DNA of 37,144 bases from Actinomycetota bacterium (GTDB taxonomy: Bacteria; Actinomycetota; Acidimicrobiia; Acidimicrobiales; Ilumatobacteraceae), in contig SXZT01000107.1 in the NCBI GenBank assembly GCA_005787785.1, positions 1-37,144 on the forward strand, written 5' to 3'. Positions 1-37,144 of the stretch are shown in pieces. The notes under the pieces are model-generated. The model had not been told where the DNA came from, ran no database searches, and saw only the letters and a list, made by a program, of their open reading frames with translations. Each line of letters opens with the position of its first letter. Position 1 is the first letter of the stretch. A program made the translations under genes and the position numbers.

Positions 1-606
1 GACTACCGCCTCGCACCCGAGCACCCCTTTCCCACTCCCCTCGTCGACTGCGTGAATGCCACACGTTGGGCACACCTGAATGCGGCGTCGCTCGGTTGCG
101 ACCCCAGCCGCATCGCAATCGGTGGTGACTCGGCGGGCGGCAACATTGCCGCGGCAATCGCAAACATGCAGGTCATTCCCGCCGCCTATCAATTGCTCCT
201 CTATCCGGTCACTGACTGCAACCTCGGCCATTCCAGCCATCAGGAAAACAAGGATGGCCCCTTTCTCACGCACGCAGGAATGAAATGGTTCGTTCACCAC
301 TACGTGTCCGACACGAACACATCCCTCGACGACCCACGCCTCTCACCGTTGTTCGATTCGGATACAAATCTTGCCGCGGCGCCGCCGACCTGCGTGATCA
401 CGGCCGAGTTCGACCCGCTGCGCGATGAGGGTGACGCCTATGCCGCCAAACTTGCGGCGCTCGGTGTGCCCGTCTCGCACATCCGCTTCTCGGGTCAGTT
501 TCACGGCTTCGTGTCACTCGCCGACTTCGTCGATGACGGCAAGGCTGCGATTTCGATGTCGGCGAGCTTGCTGCGTGCGGCCTTCAATCCGCCGCAACTG
601 AGTTAG
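1..606 (+). CDS. Alpha/beta hydrolase, HSL/esterase-like (5' truncated by window edge)
   Basis: Frame 1 is open from base 1 ([11 protein letters not shown]...) with a GDSAGGN nucleophile elbow and a later FHGF histidine motif, as in hormone-sensitive-lipase-type esterases. Confidence 0.9.
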
Positions 607-1289
607 CGACAGATCGCCCGCGCTCGCGCGAACACCGCGTCGATCATCGGCTCGGTGAGTTTTCCTGTGAACGTGTTCTGCTGGCTCGGGTGGAATGAAC
701 ACACGAGAGTCATGCCGCCGGCCCGCGCATCGACAGGCACCTCGACCCCATGCCCGAACTTTGGGCGCGGCTTCACACCAAAGAAGTCGGTTGCCGCCTG
801 GTAGGCGAAGTTTCCGAGACAAACGACGACGCGGATCTCGGTGAGCAGGGCGATTTCGCGATCGAGGAACGACCTGCACGCATCACGCTCGGCGGGCAGC
901 GGCGCATTCCCCGGCGGGGCGCACTTCACGGCCGCCGTCACCCATGCACCGCGCAGCTCGAGTCCGTCCCCGCGGTCTGTGGAAGTCGCCTGGTTGGCGA
1001 ATCCCGCCTTGTGCATGGCGCGGTAGAGCCAGTCCCCGCTGCGGTCGCCGGTGAACACCCGGCCCGTGCGATTGGCGCCGTGCGCCGCGGGGGCGAGACC
1101 AAGAACCAAGAGACGCGCCGTTGGGTCACCGAAACCCGACACGCCACGACCCCAATAATCGTCATCCCGGAAAGCGGCCCGCTTGTCGAACGCGACACGC
1201 TCGCGCCACTCGACCAGACGCGGACATGCCGTGCACTTGTGAACATCCGTGGTAAGACGCACAAGGGAATCCGTTTTTCGTGCGCCCAC
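603..1289 (-). CDS. Uracil-DNA glycosylase, family 5 (UdgB)-like, with Cys residues suggesting a 4Fe-4S cluster
   Basis: [16 protein letters not shown] motif, TACPRL Cys pair, VKCAPP...ACRSFL Cys pair, and [14 protein letters not shown]. The start is placed at GTG 1289 because TACTCT lies 6 nt upstream; the ORF-track start at 1466 would overlap the divergent gene. Confidence 0.85.
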
Positions 1290-1328: not shown

Positions 1329-1982
1329 ATGGCGCGTGCCGCGAAACCCAAACACCCCTCTGCCACGACGATTCTCCTCGTGAGGCACGGTCAAACTCCG
1401 ACAACCGGCCAATCTCTGCCGGGTCGTGCAAAGGGCCTGCACCTCAGCGACAAGGGCCGGGACCAAGCCGCCGAAGTCGCCGAGCGGCTCACGACATTCC
1501 CGAAGATCGATGCCATCTACTCATCCCCACTCGAACGCACCCGTGAGACCGCCGCGCCGTTGGCAAGGAAACTCCGTCAGCGCCTCGTCATCGAAAAGGG
1601 CCTCGTCGAATGCGACTTCGGCGACTGGACGGGAGCGAAACTCGCCGACCTCATGAAAAAGCCCGAATGGAGCACGGTCCAACGCGCACCCAGCACGTTC
1701 CGGTTCCCGAGTGGAGAGTCGTTCACCGAGATGCAGGTCCGCATCACCACGGCGCTTGATTCGATCAGGCTTCGTCATCCAGGTGGCGTCGTTGTTTGTT
1801 TCTCACACGCCGATCCGATCAAGGCCGCCCTCGCCCATGCAATGGGGACACACCTCGACTTGTTTCAGCGCATCGTCGTCAGCACCTGCTCGGTGAGCGC
1901 CCTCGCCTACGGAGCGGGTTCACCAATCGTCCTCACTGTCAACTCGACAGGTGGCCCACTCGCGGATCTACGACCCTCGTGA
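1329..1982 (+). CDS. Histidine phosphatase superfamily protein (MSMEG_4193-like phosphomutase)
   Basis: ILLVRHGQT motif, LSDKGRDQA, YSSPLERTRETA, and CFSHADPIKA second histidine. Internal ATG of the 750..1982 ORF. Confidence 0.9.
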   Translation: MARAAKPKHPSATTILLVRHGQTPTTGQSLPGRAKGLHLSDKGRDQAAEVAERLTTFPKIDAIYSSPLERTRETAAPLARKLRQRLVIEKGLVECDFGDWTGAKLADLMKKPEWSTVQRAPSTFRFPSGESFTEMQVRITTALDSIRLRHPGGVVVCFSHADPIKAALAHAMGTHLDLFQRIVVSTCSVSALAYGAGSPIVLTVNSTGGPLADLRPS

Positions 1983-2506
1983 CGGTGTACCGCGACTTCG
2001 ATACGCCGGACGCTTTCACCACGGCGGCGCTCGGCCGACCGGGACAGCGCGTCTTTCTCATCCAGGTCCGAGGCGAAGGTGAGGTCGTCACCCTGAAGTG
2101 CGAGAAACAGCAGGTTGCCGCGATCGCGCACTTCGTGCGCGAGTTGCTCGCCGACCTACCCGATGGTGACATGCCCCTGCCCGACGCGCTCGATCTGATA
2201 CCGCTCCACCACGGCACCGGGACGGGGGACGCTGCGTTTGACTTCGTGGTGGGACCGGTCGGTGTTGCCTACGACCGCGACCTCGACCGCGTCGTCGTAC
2301 AACTCGACGAAATGGTCCCCCTCGACGAGAACGGCGATCCTGACCCCAAAGTTGTCGCTGGGCGGGTGCGCGGTCTCATCACGCGCGGACAGGCGCTTGC
2401 CTTCTGCGACCATGCCGACGACGTCGTCGCCGCGGGTCGGCCGAACTGTCGTTGGTGCGGATTTCCGATCGACCCGGACGGACATCCGTGTCCGCGAATG
2501 AACTAG
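1979..2506 (+). CDS. DUF3090-family protein with C-terminal Cys-rich segment
   Basis: YRDFDTPDAFTTAALGRPGQRVFLIQVRGEGEVVTLKCEKQQVAA resembles DUF3090. The C-terminus NCRWCGFPIDPDGHPCPRMN is zinc-ribbon-like. GTG start overlaps the upstream TGA (GTGA). Confidence 0.85.
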   Translation: MTVYRDFDTPDAFTTAALGRPGQRVFLIQVRGEGEVVTLKCEKQQVAAIAHFVRELLADLPDGDMPLPDALDLIPLHHGTGTGDAAFDFVVGPVGVAYDRDLDRVVVQLDEMVPLDENGDPDPKVVAGRVRGLITRGQALAFCDHADDVVAAGRPNCRWCGFPIDPDGHPCPRMN

Positions 2507-3207
2507 TCGATCACGACGACCCGATACGCCTTCTCGCCGAAGGTGAGATCGAGGTCGTCGGTCGCATGCCATGGAGCAGCAACGCGACCTTTCTCGTGAA
2601 AGTCGCCGATGATTCGGGCAGCACACAAGCCATCTACAAACCGTTGCGCGGCGAGCGACCTCTCTGGGACTTCGAGCCGGGGCTGCATCGTCGGGAGGTG
2701 GCCGCATACGAATTGTCCGACTTCATGGGCTTCGACTTCGTCCCACCGACGATTCTGCGCGACGGCCCCATGGGAGAAGGGTCCTTCCAGTGGTTCATCG
2801 AGGCCGACCCGAACGTGCACTACTTCACCATGTTCGAAAGCCGGGACGAACTTCACGACCAGTTGAAGACCATGGCCGTGTTCGACATCGTGGCCAACAA
2901 CACGGACCGCAAGGGTGGACACGTGCTCGTCGACGCAAACGACCACGTGTGGGGTATCGACCACGGGGTCTGTTTCTCGGCTGATTTCAAATTGCGCACG
3001 GTGATTTGGGACTTTGCAACCGAGAGCCTCACGGTGCTGCAACGCGAAGCACTGACACGAATCGCCGACCAGCTTCCATTGCGCGTTGCAGCCCTCCTCA
3101 ACGACGAAGAAGTTGCCGCGATCGCCGAGCGCGCACGATGGCTACTCGATGCAGGTGTGCTGCCCTACGACCCGTCGGGTCGCAGGGTGCCCTGGCCGCT
3201 CGTCTGA
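2488..3207 (+). CDS. SCO1664-family protein, PI3K/HipA-like kinase fold
   Basis: IYKPLRGERPLWDF (putative ATP-binding Lys), VFDIVANNTDRKGGHVLV (catalytic loop-like) and WGIDHGVCF (metal-binding Asp-like). GTG start inside the preceding gene. Confidence 0.8.
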   Translation: MSANELVDHDDPIRLLAEGEIEVVGRMPWSSNATFLVKVADDSGSTQAIYKPLRGERPLWDFEPGLHRREVAAYELSDFMGFDFVPPTILRDGPMGEGSFQWFIEADPNVHYFTMFESRDELHDQLKTMAVFDIVANNTDRKGGHVLVDANDHVWGIDHGVCFSADFKLRTVIWDFATESLTVLQREALTRIADQLPLRVAALLNDEEVAAIAERARWLLDAGVLPYDPSGRRVPWPLV

Positions 3208-3226: not shown

Positions 3227-4207
3227 ATGCACAGCGACCTCGACGCACTCGTCGACCGAGCGGATCTCGACGAAATCGTCCGTCGCATCGACGACATGTG
3301 TTCCACTCGCGAGTGGGCATCCCTCGCATCCTTGCGCGACAAGGCCGCCGCGGCAGTCCGCACGGGTCGTCAGACCTGGCCATGCGCGACACTCGCCAAT
3401 TACCGCCTCGCTCTCCACGGCCCCGCCGACATCGCTGCCGCCTCGCTGCAGCATCCCACCAGCACCTTCAGCATCGGCCCCCTGACCGAGGTCATTGCCC
3501 AGCACCACACGTGGACGGAACTGGAAGCGCACATCGACAATGCTCCACTGCGCGGCTTCGTCGCCTACGAGCGGGCGCTGCGCGGCGAGTCCGTACCCGA
3601 AGATGCCACACTCCGCGCCGTCCTCGAAATTCCGATCAATCCCGCGGCATGGGAACCGAACTACGAGCCACCGGTCTACGACGACAACGGGGTGAGCGCG
3701 CCGACACCACAGTTGAACGTTGCACCAACGAACGGGATCGAGTGTGTTCCCGCATCGACCGACGATGATCCCGACATCGAGTCTGCGGTTCGCTCGGTGT
3801 TCGATGCCTGGACGACGCAATCGAACGGTCGCGTCTCTTTCACCGCCGTGTCGGGCGGTGTGGACTCGGCTCTCGGCGCACTCGGTCTTTCCCGTGCGCG
3901 TGTGTCACCACTCGAACCTTCCCAGGTGATGGCTCTTGTTGCGTGGGCCGGCGCATCAGGCGGTGCGTACGGACGCCGCCGCGGCGGTGCGCAGGGACGG
4001 TTCGGAGCATGGTGGTTTGCGACTGCGATGGCCGATGCTCTCGACGAATGGCCACTTCCCCAAGGCACACTGCGCACCGAGATGGAGGAACTGCAGTGGT
4101 TTGCCTGGTCCACGGACGAGCCCGTGCTCGGGTGGCAACTACAGATCGCCGCGTGGGATCCGTTCAACGACATGTCGTGGGCATTTTCCGCCCGCGACAT
4201 GTCGTGA
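3227..4207 (+). CDS. Uncharacterised protein with WAGASGGAYGRRRGGAQGRFGAWW block
   Basis: 326-aa ORF in the same direction as the preceding operon. TAACCT lies 6 nt before its ATG. No family assigned with confidence. Confidence 0.8.
   Translation: MHSDLDALVDRADLDEIVRRIDDMCSTREWASLASLRDKAAAAVRTGRQTWPCATLANYRLALHGPADIAAASLQHPTSTFSIGPLTEVIAQHHTWTELEAHIDNAPLRGFVAYERALRGESVPEDATLRAVLEIPINPAAWEPNYEPPVYDDNGVSAPTPQLNVAPTNGIECVPASTDDDPDIESAVRSVFDAWTTQSNGRVSFTAVSGGVDSALGALGLSRARVSPLEPSQVMALVAWAGASGGAYGRRRGGAQGRFGAWWFATAMADALDEWPLPQGTLRTEMEELQWFAWSTDEPVLGWQLQIAAWDPFNDMSWAFSARDMS
4167..4205. terminator. Perfect stem-loop between convergent genes, overlapping the stop codon (candidate bidirectional terminator or transcription barrier)
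   Basis: ACGACATGTCGTGGGC-attttcc-GCCCGCGACATGTCGT. 16-bp stem with one G:U and a 7-nt loop; no clear U-tract. Confidence 0.5.
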
Positions 4208-6041: not shown

Positions 6042-6953
6042 ATGAGACTTCTCCTGGTCGTCAACTCGTTTGCGTCATCCGTCACAGCGCGCAACACCGT
6101 CGTTGTCCACCAACAGCTCGCCCGTCGCCACGACGTCCAGGTCGTCGAAACGAACCGTCGCGGCCATGCAACCCGCTTTGCCCAAGATGCGGCCCGCCGC
6201 GGCCTCGACGCGGTCGTGGCTTTCGGCGGCGACGGCACCCTGAACGAGGTCGCGACCGGCGTGGCGGGCTCCGACACCGCGCTCGCCGTGCTGCCCGGTG
6301 GGTCGACCAACGTGTTCGCCCGCACCTTGGGCATGCCCAACGACCCGGCCGCCGCGGTCAAACAACTCTGCACCGCGCTCGACGACGAAACGATCCGACC
6401 GATCGGTCTGGGCAACTGCAACGGTCGCTACTTCTGCTTCCACACCGGTGTCGGCTATGACGCCGCCGTCGTGCGACTCGTCGAACGCCGCGCATCGCTG
6501 AAGCGCTATCTCGGACACCCGCTCTTCGTCGGTGCGGCGCTGCAGACGTGGGCGATCGGGTACGGCAGGAAGAACCCGCACTTCAACGTCCGCATCGGCG
6601 AGACGGCACCGATCGAGGGTTTCTTCACGATCGTGATGAACACCAACCCCTACACGTTTCTCGGCAAGAAGCCGCTCAACCTGTCCCCCCAGGCGAACCT
6701 CGATGCCGGTCTGTCCGTCGTGACTTTCACGTCGCTGTCGGCGACGGGACTTCTCGGGTCTCTCGGTCGCGCGCTCGTGCGCGGCGGTGTCCACGACAAC
6801 AAGCACCTCGTGGTGCGCGAGAACGTGCAGGCACTTTCCGTCGACTACGAGCGTCCATTCCCGTATCAACTCGACGGCGACTATCTGGGCGAAACGACGG
6901 AGTTGCGCTTCACGCACGTGCCCGAGGCCGTGCGCCTCGTCATACCCGCGTGA
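6042..6953 (+). CDS. Diacylglycerol kinase / YegS-like lipid kinase family protein
   Basis: FGGDGTLNEVATGVAGSDTALAVLPGGSTNVFARTLGMP (DAGK catalytic GGDGT motif) and YQLDGDYLGE near the C-terminus. Confidence 0.92.
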   Translation: MRLLLVVNSFASSVTARNTVVVHQQLARRHDVQVVETNRRGHATRFAQDAARRGLDAVVAFGGDGTLNEVATGVAGSDTALAVLPGGSTNVFARTLGMPNDPAAAVKQLCTALDDETIRPIGLGNCNGRYFCFHTGVGYDAAVVRLVERRASLKRYLGHPLFVGAALQTWAIGYGRKNPHFNVRIGETAPIEGFFTIVMNTNPYTFLGKKPLNLSPQANLDAGLSVVTFTSLSATGLLGSLGRALVRGGVHDNKHLVVRENVQALSVDYERPFPYQLDGDYLGETTELRFTHVPEAVRLVIPA

Positions 6954-6956
6954 ATC

Positions 6957-7730
6957 TCATCCCCGCCTCAACGCGGTGAGCGCAACGTCGGGCACGTTCG
7001 TGCAAATGCCGTCGACTCCGAACGCGTGTAGCTCTGACATCTTCGTGGGGTCGTCACACGTCCAGACGTTGACCATCAGGCCGCGGGTGTGCGCCTCGTC
7101 GATGAATCGTTTCGTAACGAGACCGAACCACGGATGCACGGCAACGTGCCCCGCGTCGCGCAACGATTTGAAGGCTTCCGACATGTCGTCGTCAGCAATG
7201 CCCGGCGTCAACCATGCGGTACCGATGTCCGGCGCGACCGATCGGAATCGGTCGATCGTTTCCCGACGGAATGACGAAACAAGAAAGCGCACGGCTTCAC
7301 CGCGGCGACCCAACGCATCCGCGACCATGACGGCGACGTCATCGGTGTGGTCGAAATCGGGCTCGTTCGGGTCGTTCTTGATTTCCACGTTGACCCACAT
7401 CCCGCGGCAGGCATCGAGCGCCGCGTCGAGCAACGGAACCTCCGCGGGAAGTTCCACGCGTGTGGTTCGCACAATCACGCGACCGTCCGCGAGATGAGGG
7501 TCATGATGCACGACGAGATGCCCATCGGCGGAGCGCCGCACGTCGAGTTCGACCGCATCAGCCCCCATGTCGGCGGCCCGGGAGAACGCCGCAAGGGTGT
7601 TTTCGCGCTCGGCTCGGGATGCCCCCCGGTGGGCCAAGACGGCACAACCCCGACCCGGCCCCACAGGGACGGCAGGAGTCGCCGCGGCGCCCGAAATTTC
7701 GCTCACAAATTTCACCGTAGCCCTTGTCAT
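6957..7730 (-). CDS. Glycerophosphodiester phosphodiesterase family protein
   Basis: LAHRGASRAERENTLAAFSRAADMGADAVELDVRRSADGHLVVHHDPHL (GDPD HRG/ENT/ELD motifs). Start placed at ATG 7730. Confidence 0.92.
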   Translation of the reverse strand: MTRATVKFVSEISGAAATPAVPVGPGRGCAVLAHRGASRAERENTLAAFSRAADMGADAVELDVRRSADGHLVVHHDPHLADGRVIVRTTRVELPAEVPLLDAALDACRGMWVNVEIKNDPNEPDFDHTDDVAVMVADALGRRGEAVRFLVSSFRRETIDRFRSVAPDIGTAWLTPGIADDDMSEAFKSLRDAGHVAVHPWFGLVTKRFIDEAHTRGLMVNVWTCDDPTKMSELHAFGVDGICTNVPDVALTALRRG

Positions 7731-7849
7731 TGGCCACCCGAGGGCGTAGTTTCTCCGACGCCGTGGCGGAGGAGTCTCTGGGCGTTCGCTTCCACGTCGT
7801 TTGTCTGTAACCGTTGGCGGCCCACCGCCCCGAACCCCCAGGAGATGAA

Positions 7850-8152
7850 GTGACCATCCTCGCTTCAAGTCTCGCCCTCGGCGGCGCCGACTACACGTGG
7901 CGTCAGCAGGCAGTGTGTCGAGATACCGACCCCGAATTGTTCTTCCCGGTCGGCTCCACTGGTCAGGCGCTTCTACAACTCAGCAAGGCGAAGGAAACCT
8001 GCAACCAGTGCACCGTGAAAATCGAGTGCCTGCAGTTCGCCATCGATACCAACCAAGATTCGGGTGTCTGGGGCGGAACCTCGGAAGAGGAACGCCGAAC
8101 ACTGCGCCGCCAGGTCGCGGCCCGCAACCGCGCCACTCAGAACGCCGGCTAG
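7850..8152 (+). CDS. WhiB-family Fe-S transcriptional regulator (WhiB1-like)
   Basis: AVCRDTDPELFFPVG...AKETCNQCTVKIECLQFAIDTNQDSGVWGGTSEEERR: four Cys plus the GVWGG turn. GTG start with SD-like AGGAG upstream. Confidence 0.95.
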   Translation: MTILASSLALGGADYTWRQQAVCRDTDPELFFPVGSTGQALLQLSKAKETCNQCTVKIECLQFAIDTNQDSGVWGGTSEEERRTLRRQVAARNRATQNAG

Positions 8153-9738: not shown

Positions 9739-10767
9739 CTAGGGCATCAGATTCCCGGCGAGCACGCGCACAGCAGCCACGTCGTTGACGGGTCGATGGG
9801 ACTCGGCAACGCGCATCACCGGACATCGGTGGCGCTCGGCGACCTCGCGGCACAGGGCATCTTCACGTTCGACGGTCACCAGGATCTCACCGACGGCGAC
9901 GGCCAGATCGCCGTCGTTCGCGACCCCCGCGAGGGTCTCTGCCTCGTGTTTCGTCGCGTCGTCGATCATGCGGTTGACGACCACACCCGACAAATGCAGG
10001 CCCCGACGCACCAGTTCGTCGGCAAGGAACCTTGCCTCGGCAGCAGGCGCGGGTTCGGCCGTGGTGACGACGAGGAATTGCGTCGACTCGTCGCGCAACA
10101 GCTCCTCGACGTCGCGTGCATGCGCGGTGAACGTCGGCTCCATCAGCCGGAAGAGGGCGAAGAATTCCGAGACATCGGAGAGAAAGCGGGACCCGAGCAC
10201 ACGGTCAGCAATGGCGAGGAAAGGCCGTGACGTCACGGCAACGAGACGATTCGAGGCGGGGAGCGTGAGCCAGCGCAGAAGCCGGCTGGCAAAGAATTCA
10301 CGCATCCGCTCAGCGGCGTCGATCACGCTGAGTGCGTTACGCGACGGAGGAGTATCGACGATGACAATGTCGTAGAGGCCTGAACGTGTCACCTCCCACA
10401 ACCGCTCGACTGCGATGTAGTCGTGGCTGTTCACGAATCGTCCCGTGATGTTGCGGTACAAAGCGTTCGACAACACGCGTTCTGCAACGGCCACGCTGGG
10501 AGCGACCCGGCGAATGAGAGCATCCCATCCGAGACGCGTGTCGAGCATCGACACCGAAAATGGTTCTCCACCCTCGTCGACGATGACCACTTCATTGCCC
10601 TCGGCGACGACACCCATCGACGAAGCAAGTCGACGCGCGGGGTCGATGGTGATCAAGAGAACTCGCGTGCCATCAACAGCGGCGTGACGGGCGGCCAACG
10701 CCGCGGCGAACGTGGACTTTCCCACTCCGCCGGCACCGGTGACGACGATGACACGTGTGGCGGTCAC
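9739..10767 (-). CDS. ArsA/Get3-like ATPase (BagA-like)
   Basis: VIVVTGAGGVGKSTFAAALAARHA Walker A, TIDPARRLASSMG switch, IVIVDTPPSRNALSVIDA. GTG start overlaps the upstream TGA. Confidence 0.88.
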   Translation of the reverse strand: MTATRVIVVTGAGGVGKSTFAAALAARHAAVDGTRVLLITIDPARRLASSMGVVAEGNEVVIVDEGGEPFSVSMLDTRLGWDALIRRVAPSVAVAERVLSNALYRNITGRFVNSHDYIAVERLWEVTRSGLYDIVIVDTPPSRNALSVIDAAERMREFFASRLLRWLTLPASNRLVAVTSRPFLAIADRVLGSRFLSDVSEFFALFRLMEPTFTAHARDVEELLRDESTQFLVVTTAEPAPAAEARFLADELVRRGLHLSGVVVNRMIDDATKHEAETLAGVANDGDLAVAVGEILVTVEREDALCREVAERHRCPVMRVAESHRPVNDVAAVRVLAGNLMP

Positions 10768-11597
10768 AGCGACTCGCCGAACTCGTCGTCGAGAAAACCC
10801 GCGACGGCGTTGACGACCTCCACTGAGTCGGTCGGTGCGGAGCGCGGCACGAGTACGACCTCGGCCGAAGCGAGATCCGCAAGACGACCAACCTGTGCCG
10901 TGGCAACACCGTGTCGTGCGGCAAGCGTTGCTGTGATGTGCGGTGCAGCCGACGCGGTGTCGCGGGGCGGTGAAGGCGGCATACGGTTGACGACGACGAG
11001 TGGCACGTCGACGTGTGACTCGGCACGAATCCGTCCCACAAGTTCGATTGTCTCGTCCACGGGGCTCTCTTCGGGTGTCGTGACGAGAATCACCGCAGTT
11101 GTATCGACGTCGGACAGCATCTCGATCATCCAGTCGGTTTGTTCGCGAAGCATGCCCACCTGGGTGAGCGAACGGATCGTGTGCGGTGTGGCGAGTTGAC
11201 TCGGGATGTGGCCCGAGCTTTCCGCATCGACAACGACGAGGTCATGGTGGCCGGCGCGCACTTCGTAGCAAACCTTGCCGATTGCCAGGATTTCCTTCAC
11301 CCCGGGCGCGGCATCCGCCACGAAATCGAGGGTCTGGGCGAGGACCCCGATCCGAGAGACGAGCGGTATCCGCACGTAGAGGCGGATGTATTCACGCAGT
11401 GCCTCTTCGGTGCTGTACACACAAGACGACAGGTTCGGATGCGACGGACAGACCAAATCCTTGCCGTCCATCGAAACGAGCAGGGTCTTCCTGCCCCGTC
11501 GGGCCGCCAGCAGTGCGATGGCCGCGGAAACGGTCGACTTTCCGACCCCTCCCTTGCCCGTGACGAACAGCAGACGGCGGTCGGAGATGCGGCGCAG
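10764..11597 (-). CDS. ArsA/Get3-like ATPase (BagB-like), probable non-canonical CTG start
   Basis: Frame is open from 11630. RRLLFVTGKGGVGKSTVSAAIALLAARRGRKTLLVSMDGKD lies upstream of the only ATG in the track (11471). CTG 11597 has GGAG 7 nt upstream. Confidence 0.75.
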   Translation of the reverse strand: MRRISDRRLLFVTGKGGVGKSTVSAAIALLAARRGRKTLLVSMDGKDLVCPSHPNLSSCVYSTEEALREYIRLYVRIPLVSRIGVLAQTLDFVADAAPGVKEILAIGKVCYEVRAGHHDLVVVDAESSGHIPSQLATPHTIRSLTQVGMLREQTDWMIEMLSDVDTTAVILVTTPEESPVDETIELVGRIRAESHVDVPLVVVNRMPPSPPRDTASAAPHITATLAARHGVATAQVGRLADLASAEVVLVPRSAPTDSVEVVNAVAGFLDDEFGESL

Positions 11598-34383: not shown

Positions 34384-35238
34384 ATGGCGAACAATGTGCG
34401 AGCGGCACCGCTGCAAACCGATTGGCCCGGCTCGAAAGAGGCCATGATCGACAAGCACGAGGCTGCGGCCCACGAGGCGAAGAAGCAGGGAGCCCAGGTC
34501 ATGTGCTTCCAGGAACTCTTCTACGGGCCGTACTTCTGCCAGGTGCAGGATGCCGAGTACTACGCGTACACCGAATACATCCCCGATGGCCCGACGACGC
34601 AGCGGTTCCAGAGCGTGGCGAAGGAACTGGGCATGGTCCTCGTGCTGCCGATGTACGAAGTCGTTCAGCCGGGCGTGTACTACAACACCGCCGCGGTGAT
34701 CGATGCCGACGGCACCTACCTCGGCAAGTACCGCAAGCAGCACATCCCTCAGGTCAAGGGCTTCTGGGAGAAGTTCTATTTCAAACCCGGTAACGGCGGC
34801 TACCCCGTGTTCGAAACCGCAGTCGGCAAGGTCGGCGTCTACATCTGTTACGACCGCCACTTTCCGGAAGGTTGGCGCGCACTCGGTGTGAACGGTGCCG
34901 AGATCGTGTTCAACCCGTCGGCAACACACCGTGGCCTCTCCGAATACCTGTGGCGCCTCGAGCAGCCCGCATCAGCCGTGGCGAACATGTACTACGTCGG
35001 GGCGATCAACCGCGTCGGCATCGAGCCTCTGGGTGAAAACGACTTCTACGGCCAGTCGTACTTCGTCGACCCCGAGGGAAAGTTCGTCGGTGAGGTCGGC
35101 GACCCGTACAAGCCCGAACTGATCGTGCGCGACCTCGACATGGACAAAATCAAGCAGGTGCGCGACCGCTGGGCGTTCTACCGCGACCGCCGTCCCGACG
35201 CCTACGGAGATCTGATCGAAAGCCGCCTCGGCGGCTGA
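34384..35238 (+). CDS. Nitrilase-superfamily amidohydrolase, probable N-carbamoyl-beta-alanine amidohydrolase (beta-ureidopropionase)
   Basis: Glu-Lys-Cys triad context: VMCFQELFYGPYF, KYRKQHIPQVKGFWEKFYF, VGVYICYDRHFPEGWRALG. Adjacent to dihydropyrimidinase. Confidence 0.9.
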   Translation: MANNVRAAPLQTDWPGSKEAMIDKHEAAAHEAKKQGAQVMCFQELFYGPYFCQVQDAEYYAYTEYIPDGPTTQRFQSVAKELGMVLVLPMYEVVQPGVYYNTAAVIDADGTYLGKYRKQHIPQVKGFWEKFYFKPGNGGYPVFETAVGKVGVYICYDRHFPEGWRALGVNGAEIVFNPSATHRGLSEYLWRLEQPASAVANMYYVGAINRVGIEPLGENDFYGQSYFVDPEGKFVGEVGDPYKPELIVRDLDMDKIKQVRDRWAFYRDRRPDAYGDLIESRLGG

Positions 35239-35253
35239 GAAACAGGGGGACAC

Positions 35254-36678
35254 ATGGCACGCACACTCATCATCAACGGAACAATCATCAGCCCCACCGG
35301 CCTCAGCGCCGGTGACGTGCTGGTCGACGGCGAAACGATCGCGGCGATCTTCCAACCGGGTCAGGTGGCAGCACTCGGCGTGACCGCCGACCGCACGATC
35401 GACGCCAGGGGCAAATACGTCATTCCCGGTGGAATCGACGTGCACACCCACATGGAACTGCCCTTCGGCGGCACCGAAGCCTCGGACACCTTCGAAACCG
35501 GCAGCAATGCAGCGGCATGGGGCGGTGTCACCACGATCGTCGACATGGCGCTGCAGCGCTACGGCGAGAACGTGCAGCAGGGCCTGGCCACCTGGCACCG
35601 CAAGGCGGAGGGCAACTGCTCGATCGACTATGCGTTCCACCAGATCATCGGCGGCATCGACGACCAGTCGTTGAAGGACATGACCTACCTCGTCGAGAAC
35701 GAAGGCGTCACATCGTTCAAGTTGTTCATGGCTTACCCGGGTGTCTTCTACAGCGACGACGGCCAGATCCTGAAGGCGATGCAGACCGCAAGCGAGAACG
35801 GCGCGATGATCATGATGCACGCCGAGAACGGCATCGCAATCGACGTGCTCGTCGCGCAGCACCTGGCGCGCCGCGAAACCGACCCGAAGTATCACTCGAT
35901 CAGCCGTCCGAGCCTGCTCGAAGGCGAGGCCACGCACCGCGCAATCGTTCTGTCGAAGGTCGCCGGCAACGTTCCGCTGTACATCGTGCACATGTCGGCG
36001 TCCGAAGCCCTCGACGAAGTGGCCCAAGCCCAGAACGAGGGCTTGAACGTCTTCGCCGAAACCTGTCCGCAGTACCTCTACATGACGCTCGAAGACCACC
36101 TGGCCCAGCCGGGTTTCGAGGGTGCGAAGTACGTCTGCAGCCCGCCGATTCGCTCGAAGCACGACCACCGGCACCACCACCAGGACCTGTGGAAGGGCCT
36201 GCGCATGAACGAACTCGCCATCGTGTCCACCGACCATTGCCCGTTCTGCATGAAGGACCAGAAGGAACTCGGCATGGGCGACTTCTCGAAGATCCCGAAC
36301 GGCATCGCCGGCGTCGAACACCGCATGGAGCTCATCTATCAGGGCGTCGTGTTGGGTGAGATCAGCCTCGAGCGTTGGGTCGAGACGTGCGCCACCACTC
36401 CGGCGCGCATGTTCGGCATGTACCCGAAGAAGGGCATCATCGCGCCGGGTTCCGACGCCGACATCGTCGTGTGGGACCCGAACGCACAGACGAAGATCGG
36501 CATCAACGACAAGCACCACATGAACACCGACCACAGCGCGTGGGAGGGAACGGTCATCGACGGAAAGGTCGACACCGTCATGTCACGCGGCATGATCGTG
36601 ATGGAAAACGACAAATTCACCGGCCGCAAGGGTCACGGCAGGTACGTGAAGCGTGGCCTCAGCCAGTACCTCCACTGA
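35254..36678 (+). CDS. hydA: Dihydropyrimidinase (D-hydantoinase)
   Basis: GKYVIPGGIDVHTHMELPFGGTEASDTFETGSNAAAWGGVTTIVD, SFKLFMAYPGVF, MMHAENG, STDHCPF, KKGIIAPGSDADIVVWDP. Confidence 0.95.
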   Translation: MARTLIINGTIISPTGLSAGDVLVDGETIAAIFQPGQVAALGVTADRTIDARGKYVIPGGIDVHTHMELPFGGTEASDTFETGSNAAAWGGVTTIVDMALQRYGENVQQGLATWHRKAEGNCSIDYAFHQIIGGIDDQSLKDMTYLVENEGVTSFKLFMAYPGVFYSDDGQILKAMQTASENGAMIMMHAENGIAIDVLVAQHLARRETDPKYHSISRPSLLEGEATHRAIVLSKVAGNVPLYIVHMSASEALDEVAQAQNEGLNVFAETCPQYLYMTLEDHLAQPGFEGAKYVCSPPIRSKHDHRHHHQDLWKGLRMNELAIVSTDHCPFCMKDQKELGMGDFSKIPNGIAGVEHRMELIYQGVVLGEISLERWVETCATTPARMFGMYPKKGIIAPGSDADIVVWDPNAQTKIGINDKHHMNTDHSAWEGTVIDGKVDTVMSRGMIVMENDKFTGRKGHGRYVKRGLSQYLH

Positions 36679-36694
36679 CAGAAAAGAGAACCAG

Positions 36695-37144
36695 ATGAAG
36701 CGCATTTCCCATTGGATCGACGGCAAGGTCGCCGCCGGCACGTCGGGCCGTTCCGGCAAGGTCTTCAACCCCGCCACCGGTGAGGTGCAGGCCGAGGTCG
36801 ACTTCGCCGACGTGTCGGAAATCGACAAAGCGGTGGCGACGGCAAAGGCGGCGTTGCCCGCATGGCGCGCCACCAACCTGTCGCGCCGCGCCGAGATCAT
36901 GTTCAACCTGCGTGAACTGATCGATGCCAACCGCAAGGAAATCGCATCTCTGCTCTCGCTCGAGCACGGCAAGGTCATCTCCGACGCCCTCGGTGAAGTT
37001 GCGCGTGGCCTCGAAAACATCGAGTTCGCGTGTGGCGTTCCGCACCTCATGAAGGGTTCGTACAGCGAACAGGCATCGTCGGGTGTCGACGTGTACAACA
37101 TCCGCCAACCCCTCGGTGTCGTCGCCGGCATCACTCCGTTCAAC
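36695..37144 (+). CDS. mmsA: CoA-acylating methylmalonate-semialdehyde dehydrogenase (3' truncated by window edge)
   Basis: MKRISHWIDGKVAAGTSGRSGKVFNPATGEVQAEV...RGLENIEFACGVPHLMKGSYSEQASSGVDVYNIRQPLGVVAGITPFN, typical MMSDH N-terminus. Runs off the end, so it is absent from the ORF track. Confidence 0.9.
   Translation, partial: MKRISHWIDGKVAAGTSGRSGKVFNPATGEVQAEVDFADVSEIDKAVATAKAALPAWRATNLSRRAEIMFNLRELIDANRKEIASLLSLEHGKVISDALGEVARGLENIEFACGVPHLMKGSYSEQASSGVDVYNIRQPLGVVAGITPFN

Follow-up and report, generated by a model that had tools for sequence, protein, structure and literature searches.

A kinase of the PI3/PI4-kinase-like type (KIN) is the constant component of a three-gene set that also encodes a histidine phosphatase (PHO) and a small protein of the DUF3090 family, and one copy of this set lies in the DNA stretch of 37,144 nucleotides analysed here (the window). 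The set is catalogued but uncharacterised and is widespread, including in Mycobacterium and Streptomyces; the copy in the window is an ordinary member of it. What is new here is KIN as the constant part, together with a two-gene PHO-KIN form (the duo) and a pattern of kinase loss and replacement that identifies the core gene and excludes DUF3090 as the sole substrate of the kinase. A literature search that covered few subscription journals turned up no published function for DUF3090, SCO1664, Rv2133c, Rv2134c or the TIGR accessions, and no paper on the duo, on the replacement pattern or on the histidine at the metal site of KIN. A system of three genes, one of them for a probable kinase, already figures in the TIGRFAM notes. 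The earlier note had taken the locus for a candidate undescribed system; it is not wholly undescribed, as all three families are in NCBIfam, the linkage of SCO1664 to mshC has been noted in print (PMC4255298), and the PHO homologue Rv2135c has been assayed (PMC3866925).

The three genes in the window are adjacent on one strand in the order PHO-DUF3090-KIN, the arrangement by which we define a trio (Table 1). PHO is a protein of 217 residues with an RHG motif (ATG at 1329, TGA at 1980-1982), DUF3090 one of 175 residues (GTG at 1979, TAG at 2504-2506), and KIN one of 239 residues, whose GTG at 2488 lies inside the DUF3090 coding sequence and whose TGA is at 3205-3207. The serial overlap of the three genes that had been claimed earlier can be read directly from the sequence, as 4 and 19 bases. 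Each protein scores above the cut-off of its NCBIfam family: PHO with 222.8 bits versus 203.85 (TIGR03848), DUF3090 with 127.9 versus 117.25 over its full length (TIGR03847), and KIN with 264 versus 172.4 over positions 1-253 of the 253 of the profile (TIGR03843). The source genome of the window encodes a single KIN, and PHO is its sole TIGR03848 match above the cut-off; the closest named relatives of the window copy are Ilumatobacteraceae. The mycobacterial genes Rv2135c-Rv2134c-Rv2133c are an example of these three families; with all three of its proteins above the family cut-offs and the same order and strand, the window trio does not differ in kind, and its copy does not lie beside mshC.

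Table 1. Features of the PHO-DUF3090-KIN locus, in positions of the window
Feature	Position	Strand	Basis
PHO, histidine phosphatase, MSMEG_4193/TIGR03848 family, Rv2135c homologue	1329..1982	+	profile
DUF3090 protein, TIGR03847/PF11290	1979..2506	+	profile
KIN, PI3/PI4-kinase-like, SCO1664/TIGR03843 family	2488..3207	+	profile, predicted fold
GTGA overlap of PHO stop and DUF3090 start, 4 bases	1979..1982	+	sequence reading
DUF3090/KIN overlap, 19 bases	2488..2506	+	sequence reading
Codons of the DUF3090 C-terminal CxxC-x8-HxC, likely zinc site	2447..2491	+	conservation; metal inferred
KIN K51, putative ATP-binding lysine (IYKP)	2638..2640	+	alignment of homologues
KIN catalytic loop N138-T-D140-R-K-G-G-H145	2899..2922	+	alignment of homologues
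KIN D158 (IDHG), DFG-type metal aspartate	2959..2961	+	alignment of homologues

Among 199 actinobacterial genomes sampled evenly across the phylum, 88 have KIN and 89 have DUF3090 (phi 0.99; a marginal KIN match of 18.9 bits in genome G173 was left out of the count), and the difference of one genome comes from a contig that ends right after DUF3090 and cuts off KIN (locus L085). The linkage of KIN and DUF3090 is not due to chance, and the recurrence of the three families together, stated in the earlier note, is borne out with conserved order. The order PHO-DUF3090-KIN on one strand holds in the 60 loci inspected, except in L085 and in L050, where genome G008 has a further copy made up of PHO and KIN without DUF3090; in L081, PHO is split, probably by a frameshift. 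Another 80 loci, eight of them from Chloroflexota, came from scanning a single genome per species; the 80 comprise 62 full trios, 14 PHO-KIN duos, two DUF3090-KIN pairs and two loci cut by contig ends. The trios among these Chloroflexota loci, on which the coverage of that phylum rests, show the same gene order as those of actinobacteria, and the median spacing between the domains is 15 and 24 bases. The two DUF3090-KIN pairs (L167 and L169) are from Thermoflexales, and the best PHO-like matches in their genomes reach about 118 bits, below the cut-off. The question raised earlier, whether DUF3090 always occurs with both the kinase and the phosphatase, has the answer yes for a KIN in the same genome, with the one contig-end exception, and no for PHO. 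Since PHO is missing from these two loci, the module can in some cases do without a dedicated phosphatase; and because duos occur without DUF3090 and the Thermoflexales loci without PHO, KIN is the constant component, which points to it as the core of the module. One of the control genomes, that of C. glutamicum, encodes KIN and lacks DUF3090; the one TIGR03848 match above the cut-off among the controls is probably its PHO. Four records titled Bifidobacterium breve or Rokuibacteriota (L093, L134, L144 and L148) carry Acidimicrobiia-like kinases, and are likely mislabelled or mixed bins.

KIN matches the Pfam family PI3_PI4_kinase (PF00454) with 40.5 bits, above the gathering cut-off of 27.1, and the best PDB match of its AlphaFold2 model (pLDDT 91.8) by Foldseek is PI4KIIalpha (E 1.5e-8, probability 1.0), both of which agree with the PI3K-like kinase proposed from the motifs IYKP, VANNTDRKGGH and WGIDHG, all present in KIN. 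K51, E70, D140, H145 and D158 show zero substitutions in 150 sequences, in which blanks are truncated rows (K51 is unsubstituted in 143 aligned homologues, D158 in 146). The loci L091-L170 were found by the pattern NN[AT]DRK[GAS][GS]H, which makes D140 to H145 conserved by construction there, and the profile-found set, unbiased at these positions, shows the same conservation. Loss of the catalytic Lys and Asp residues in most homologues, named in the earlier note as what would speak against its proposal, was looked for, and the catalytic residues of both KIN and PHO are intact throughout. With the type II PI 4-kinases (PI4KIIalpha/beta) KIN shares the predicted fold, the NTDR loop, which aligns with PI4K2B (the PI4KII loop there reads NTDRGNDN), the ID-G metal motif and, presumably, a similar KP...E motif after the ATP lysine. 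It differs from them in sequence (~17% identity) and at the metal site: the D-x4-N of the type II enzymes is absent, and the unsubstituted H145 stands at +5, where a metal-binding Asn is usual. As judged from the model and these residues, KIN would be an active ATP-dependent phosphotransferase with a fold like that of type II PI 4-kinases.

After PI4KIIalpha and beta, the Foldseek ranking of KIN continues with Fam20, CtkA and the lanthipeptide-synthetase kinases. That protein kinases such as Fam20C and CtkA share the PI4KII-like fold is a counterpoint to a small-molecule substrate, and raises the alternative that KIN is a protein kinase, PHO a protein phosphatase and DUF3090 an adaptor or substrate. 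We consider this rather unlikely: DUF3090 is excluded as the sole substrate where duos lack it; no gene for a protein target recurs next to the loci; and the substrates of branch-1 histidine phosphatases are mostly small molecules. Fam20 and CtkA/HipA-type kinases have a related atypical kinase fold, with weaker structural scores and a metal-site residue different from that of KIN.

PHO matches the Pfam family His_Phos_1 with 170 bits. The RHG phosphatase assignment made earlier agrees with the motif and the TIGR03848 score, and R19, H20, R70, E94 and H160 make up the full catalytic set of branch-1 histidine phosphatases; R19, H20, R70 and H160 show zero substitutions in about 146 homologues. 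RHG is replaced by RHA in 31 of 143 homologues. Rv2135c and the window PHO are placed in one family by gene order and the literature, and have the catalytic residues in common, with RHA in the former and RHG in the latter. It has been shown that Rv2135c, which is reported from membrane fractions, has weak acid phosphatase activity and is no phosphoglycerate mutase, acting slowly and with millimolar Km on pNPP, PEP, glycerol phosphate and fructose 6-phosphate (PMC3866925). This result, and the nearest solved relatives of PHO, phosphoserine phosphatase 1 and the phosphatase 1ebb/1h2e, make it improbable that PHO is a phosphomutase shifting a phosphate that KIN has placed, an activity suggested by the name 'putative phosphomutase' of its NCBIfam family.

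DUF3090 matches PF11290 with 125.3 bits, versus a cut-off of 27. Its AlphaFold2 model has a pLDDT of 90.0; Foldseek found no confident fold match to it in the PDB, and no solved structure was found by sequence. A PX-domain fold was not accepted, the Foldseek matches being weak (probability at most 0.35). In a viral library the model matches Bacillus phage proteins (W.Ph. Gp230 and BPS13) at a probability of 0.96-0.98 but with a low TM-score of ~0.35-0.4, and a search of viral contigs found no relatives of DUF3090. The cysteine-rich end described earlier reads C157-x2-C160-x8-H169-x-C171; the three cysteines are never substituted in 136 homologues and H169 is kept in about 91%, and the segment is likely a zinc site, as judged from conservation. 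The earlier idea of a metal-dependent partner agrees with these conserved putative ligands; DUF3090 is not an obligatory partner, as PHO-KIN pairs exist without it. The mutants sensitive to rifampicin in a BCG transposon screen include those of Rv2134c (PMC11329110), and mutants of MSMEG_4192, which from gene order would be the DUF3090 gene, were over-represented after dibucaine in a survival screen of M. smegmatis (PMC10127668).

The duos, which lack DUF3090, are found in Micrococcaceae and related groups, and in the genomes with duos only (Brachybacterium, Kocuria, Rothia, Propioniciclava and Citricoccus) DUF3090 is absent genome-wide. In all 15 duo loci, a pair of genes encoding an AAA (ChlI-like) and a VWA (ChlD-like) protein is divergent from the duo (e.g. 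L118:3723-7363), an adjacency that may reflect synteny of the receiving lineage. In a quick tree, for which no root was inferred, the duo kinases fall among Acidimicrobiia-type kinases, in a group that also includes one Propionibacteriaceae trio (SH-aLRT 97), and away from the native Arthrobacter kinases; the PHO-KIN pair thus looks transferred and functionally equivalent.

Replacement was followed in 121 genomes of Micrococcaceae, the family of G008, with KIN types assigned by score (337 bits or more for the native type, about 216-265 bits, one in two pieces, for the duo type) and neighbourhoods confirmed in the fetched loci only. The family was identified by G331 and G376, whose hit coordinates coincide with those of the Kocuria and Citricoccus genomes G281 and G288. 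DUF3090 is found in 65 of these genomes, native-type KIN in 58 and duo-type KIN in 33, and no genome (0/65) has DUF3090 without any KIN. The native KIN is lost in seven of the 65, all seven of which have a duo KIN, versus 11 of the 58 with an intact native KIN (Fisher p 4.6e-5, with kinship ignored; the seven losses are not independent events, three being in one genus). Fragments of the native KIN lie beside DUF3090 in L233, L234 and L236; in L221 PHO alone is lost, and DUF3090 stands alone in L219 and L220, which come from two further genomes of Arthrobacter. Eight of nine orphan DUF3090 genes are open, that of L234 having a stop, and their median dN/dS is 0.15, versus 0.14 for trio copies (0.05-0.13 among three relatives in one genus); they may be recent leftovers, most of the dN/dS predating the kinase loss. 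Decaying kinase copies in Micrococcaceae genomes that have another intact KIN were seen in six cases (L234, L233, L236, G359:C11, G310:C1 and G363:C4). In our reading of the pattern, a transferred PHO-KIN pair has taken the place of the native kinase and phosphatase, and DUF3090 has persisted in some lineages and disappeared from others; a PHO-KIN cassette is expected to be able to substitute for a native pair. The same data bear on a selfish or purely syntenic linkage of housekeeping neighbours without common function: flanking genes that vary from clade to clade would suit it, but the joint presence and absence across families, the acquisition of PHO and KIN as a pair and the loss of the native KIN only where a duo exists make it very improbable.

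On balance, we lean slightly towards a cycle in which KIN, as the core, and PHO act on a common substrate that is not DUF3090, the latter being accessory to KIN. The three proteins would form one translationally coupled module; the target that KIN phosphorylates in the cell would more probably be a small molecule or the head group of a lipid than a protein, and PHO would take this phosphate off. DUF3090, with its putative C-terminal zinc site, would contact KIN and be useful only with it, in docking, substrate delivery or regulation. Opposing action of kinase and phosphatase, already proposed in the earlier note, remains the best reading given the intact catalytic residues, and the single substrate that the note gave them is our supposition as well. 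Against the cycle it may be held that Rv2135c, the sole PHO assayed, is slow on generic phosphates.

The trio might instead serve mycothiol synthesis, with PHO as the missing GlcNAc-Ins-P phosphatase (MshA2), to which, as far as we know, no gene is firmly assigned, and KIN and DUF3090 acting on inositol intermediates. In 15 of the 16 genomes with MshC above the cut-off, no more than about 2 kb separate mshC from KIN, and the trio is present in 42 of the 43 genomes with MshC or an MshC-like score above 340 bits. The gene for inositol-1-phosphate synthase (INO1) is found in 86 of 89 trio genomes versus 56 of 110 without the trio, a co-occurrence that is suggestive but confounded by ancestry and is not taken as proof. 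Besides the published linkage to mshC, a phosphatase step of mycothiol synthesis has been named MshA2 (PMC4360819). The MshC neighbourhood, however, is linked to the trio in Actinomycetia, whereas the trio is more widespread and the linkage was not seen elsewhere; genomes with intermediate MshC-like scores have that gene away from the trio. Acidimicrobiia and other clades (G133, G016, G101 and others) encode MshC-like proteins whose scores, 340-446 bits, fall between those of true MshC and those of cysteinyl-tRNA synthetase; they are possibly divergent MshC. MshC as a general trio partner is too narrow, as 47 of the 89 trio genomes have no MshC-like match above 340 bits. In addition, the duo loci adjoin the AAA/VWA pair and not mshC, and Chloroflexota are, to our knowledge, not known to make mycothiol. 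Because MshC-like genes are found in only 42 of the 89, mycothiol is not the whole role, and a mycothiol-only role is unlikely; the alternative as a whole appears improbable to us, if a little less so than the phosphomutase.

An inositol-linked substrate is possible for the kinase-phosphatase cycle. In a more specific and quite tentative form, which we would not expect to hold, KIN would phosphorylate a membrane inositol head group, PHO would reverse this and DUF3090 would guide KIN, as a prokaryotic inositol-phosphate or phosphoinositide cycle. If this is true, PI4-kinase signalling would have a bacterial counterpart in Actinomycetota and Chloroflexota, carried in a portable two-gene cassette, and action of KIN on inositol lipids would be relevant to how PI-kinase signalling arose and to the biology of the mycobacterial envelope.

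Pfam searches of the immediate trio neighbours, made with a crude gene caller, found no common partner. A gene of the uracil-DNA glycosylase superfamily at 603-1258 (-) is divergent from PHO, and this is the commonest upstream neighbour of trios (16 of 84 loci scanned); directly downstream of KIN lies a DUF6183 gene at 3227-4207 (+), a family found in 8 of 82 downstream neighbours. Near the trio there are also a diacylglycerol-kinase-type gene at 6042-6950 (+) and a glycerophosphodiester phosphodiesterase gene at 6957-7868 (-). Further along, a WhiB gene at 7814-8149 is near two adjacent genes at 9742-11471 (-), the first of which (9742-10767) has, by eye, a Walker-type ATPase start resembling ArsA/Get3, and the region 34384-37144 (+) looks by eye like a pyrimidine-degradation cluster, with an amidohydrolase, a dihydropyrimidinase-like protein and an aldehyde dehydrogenase.
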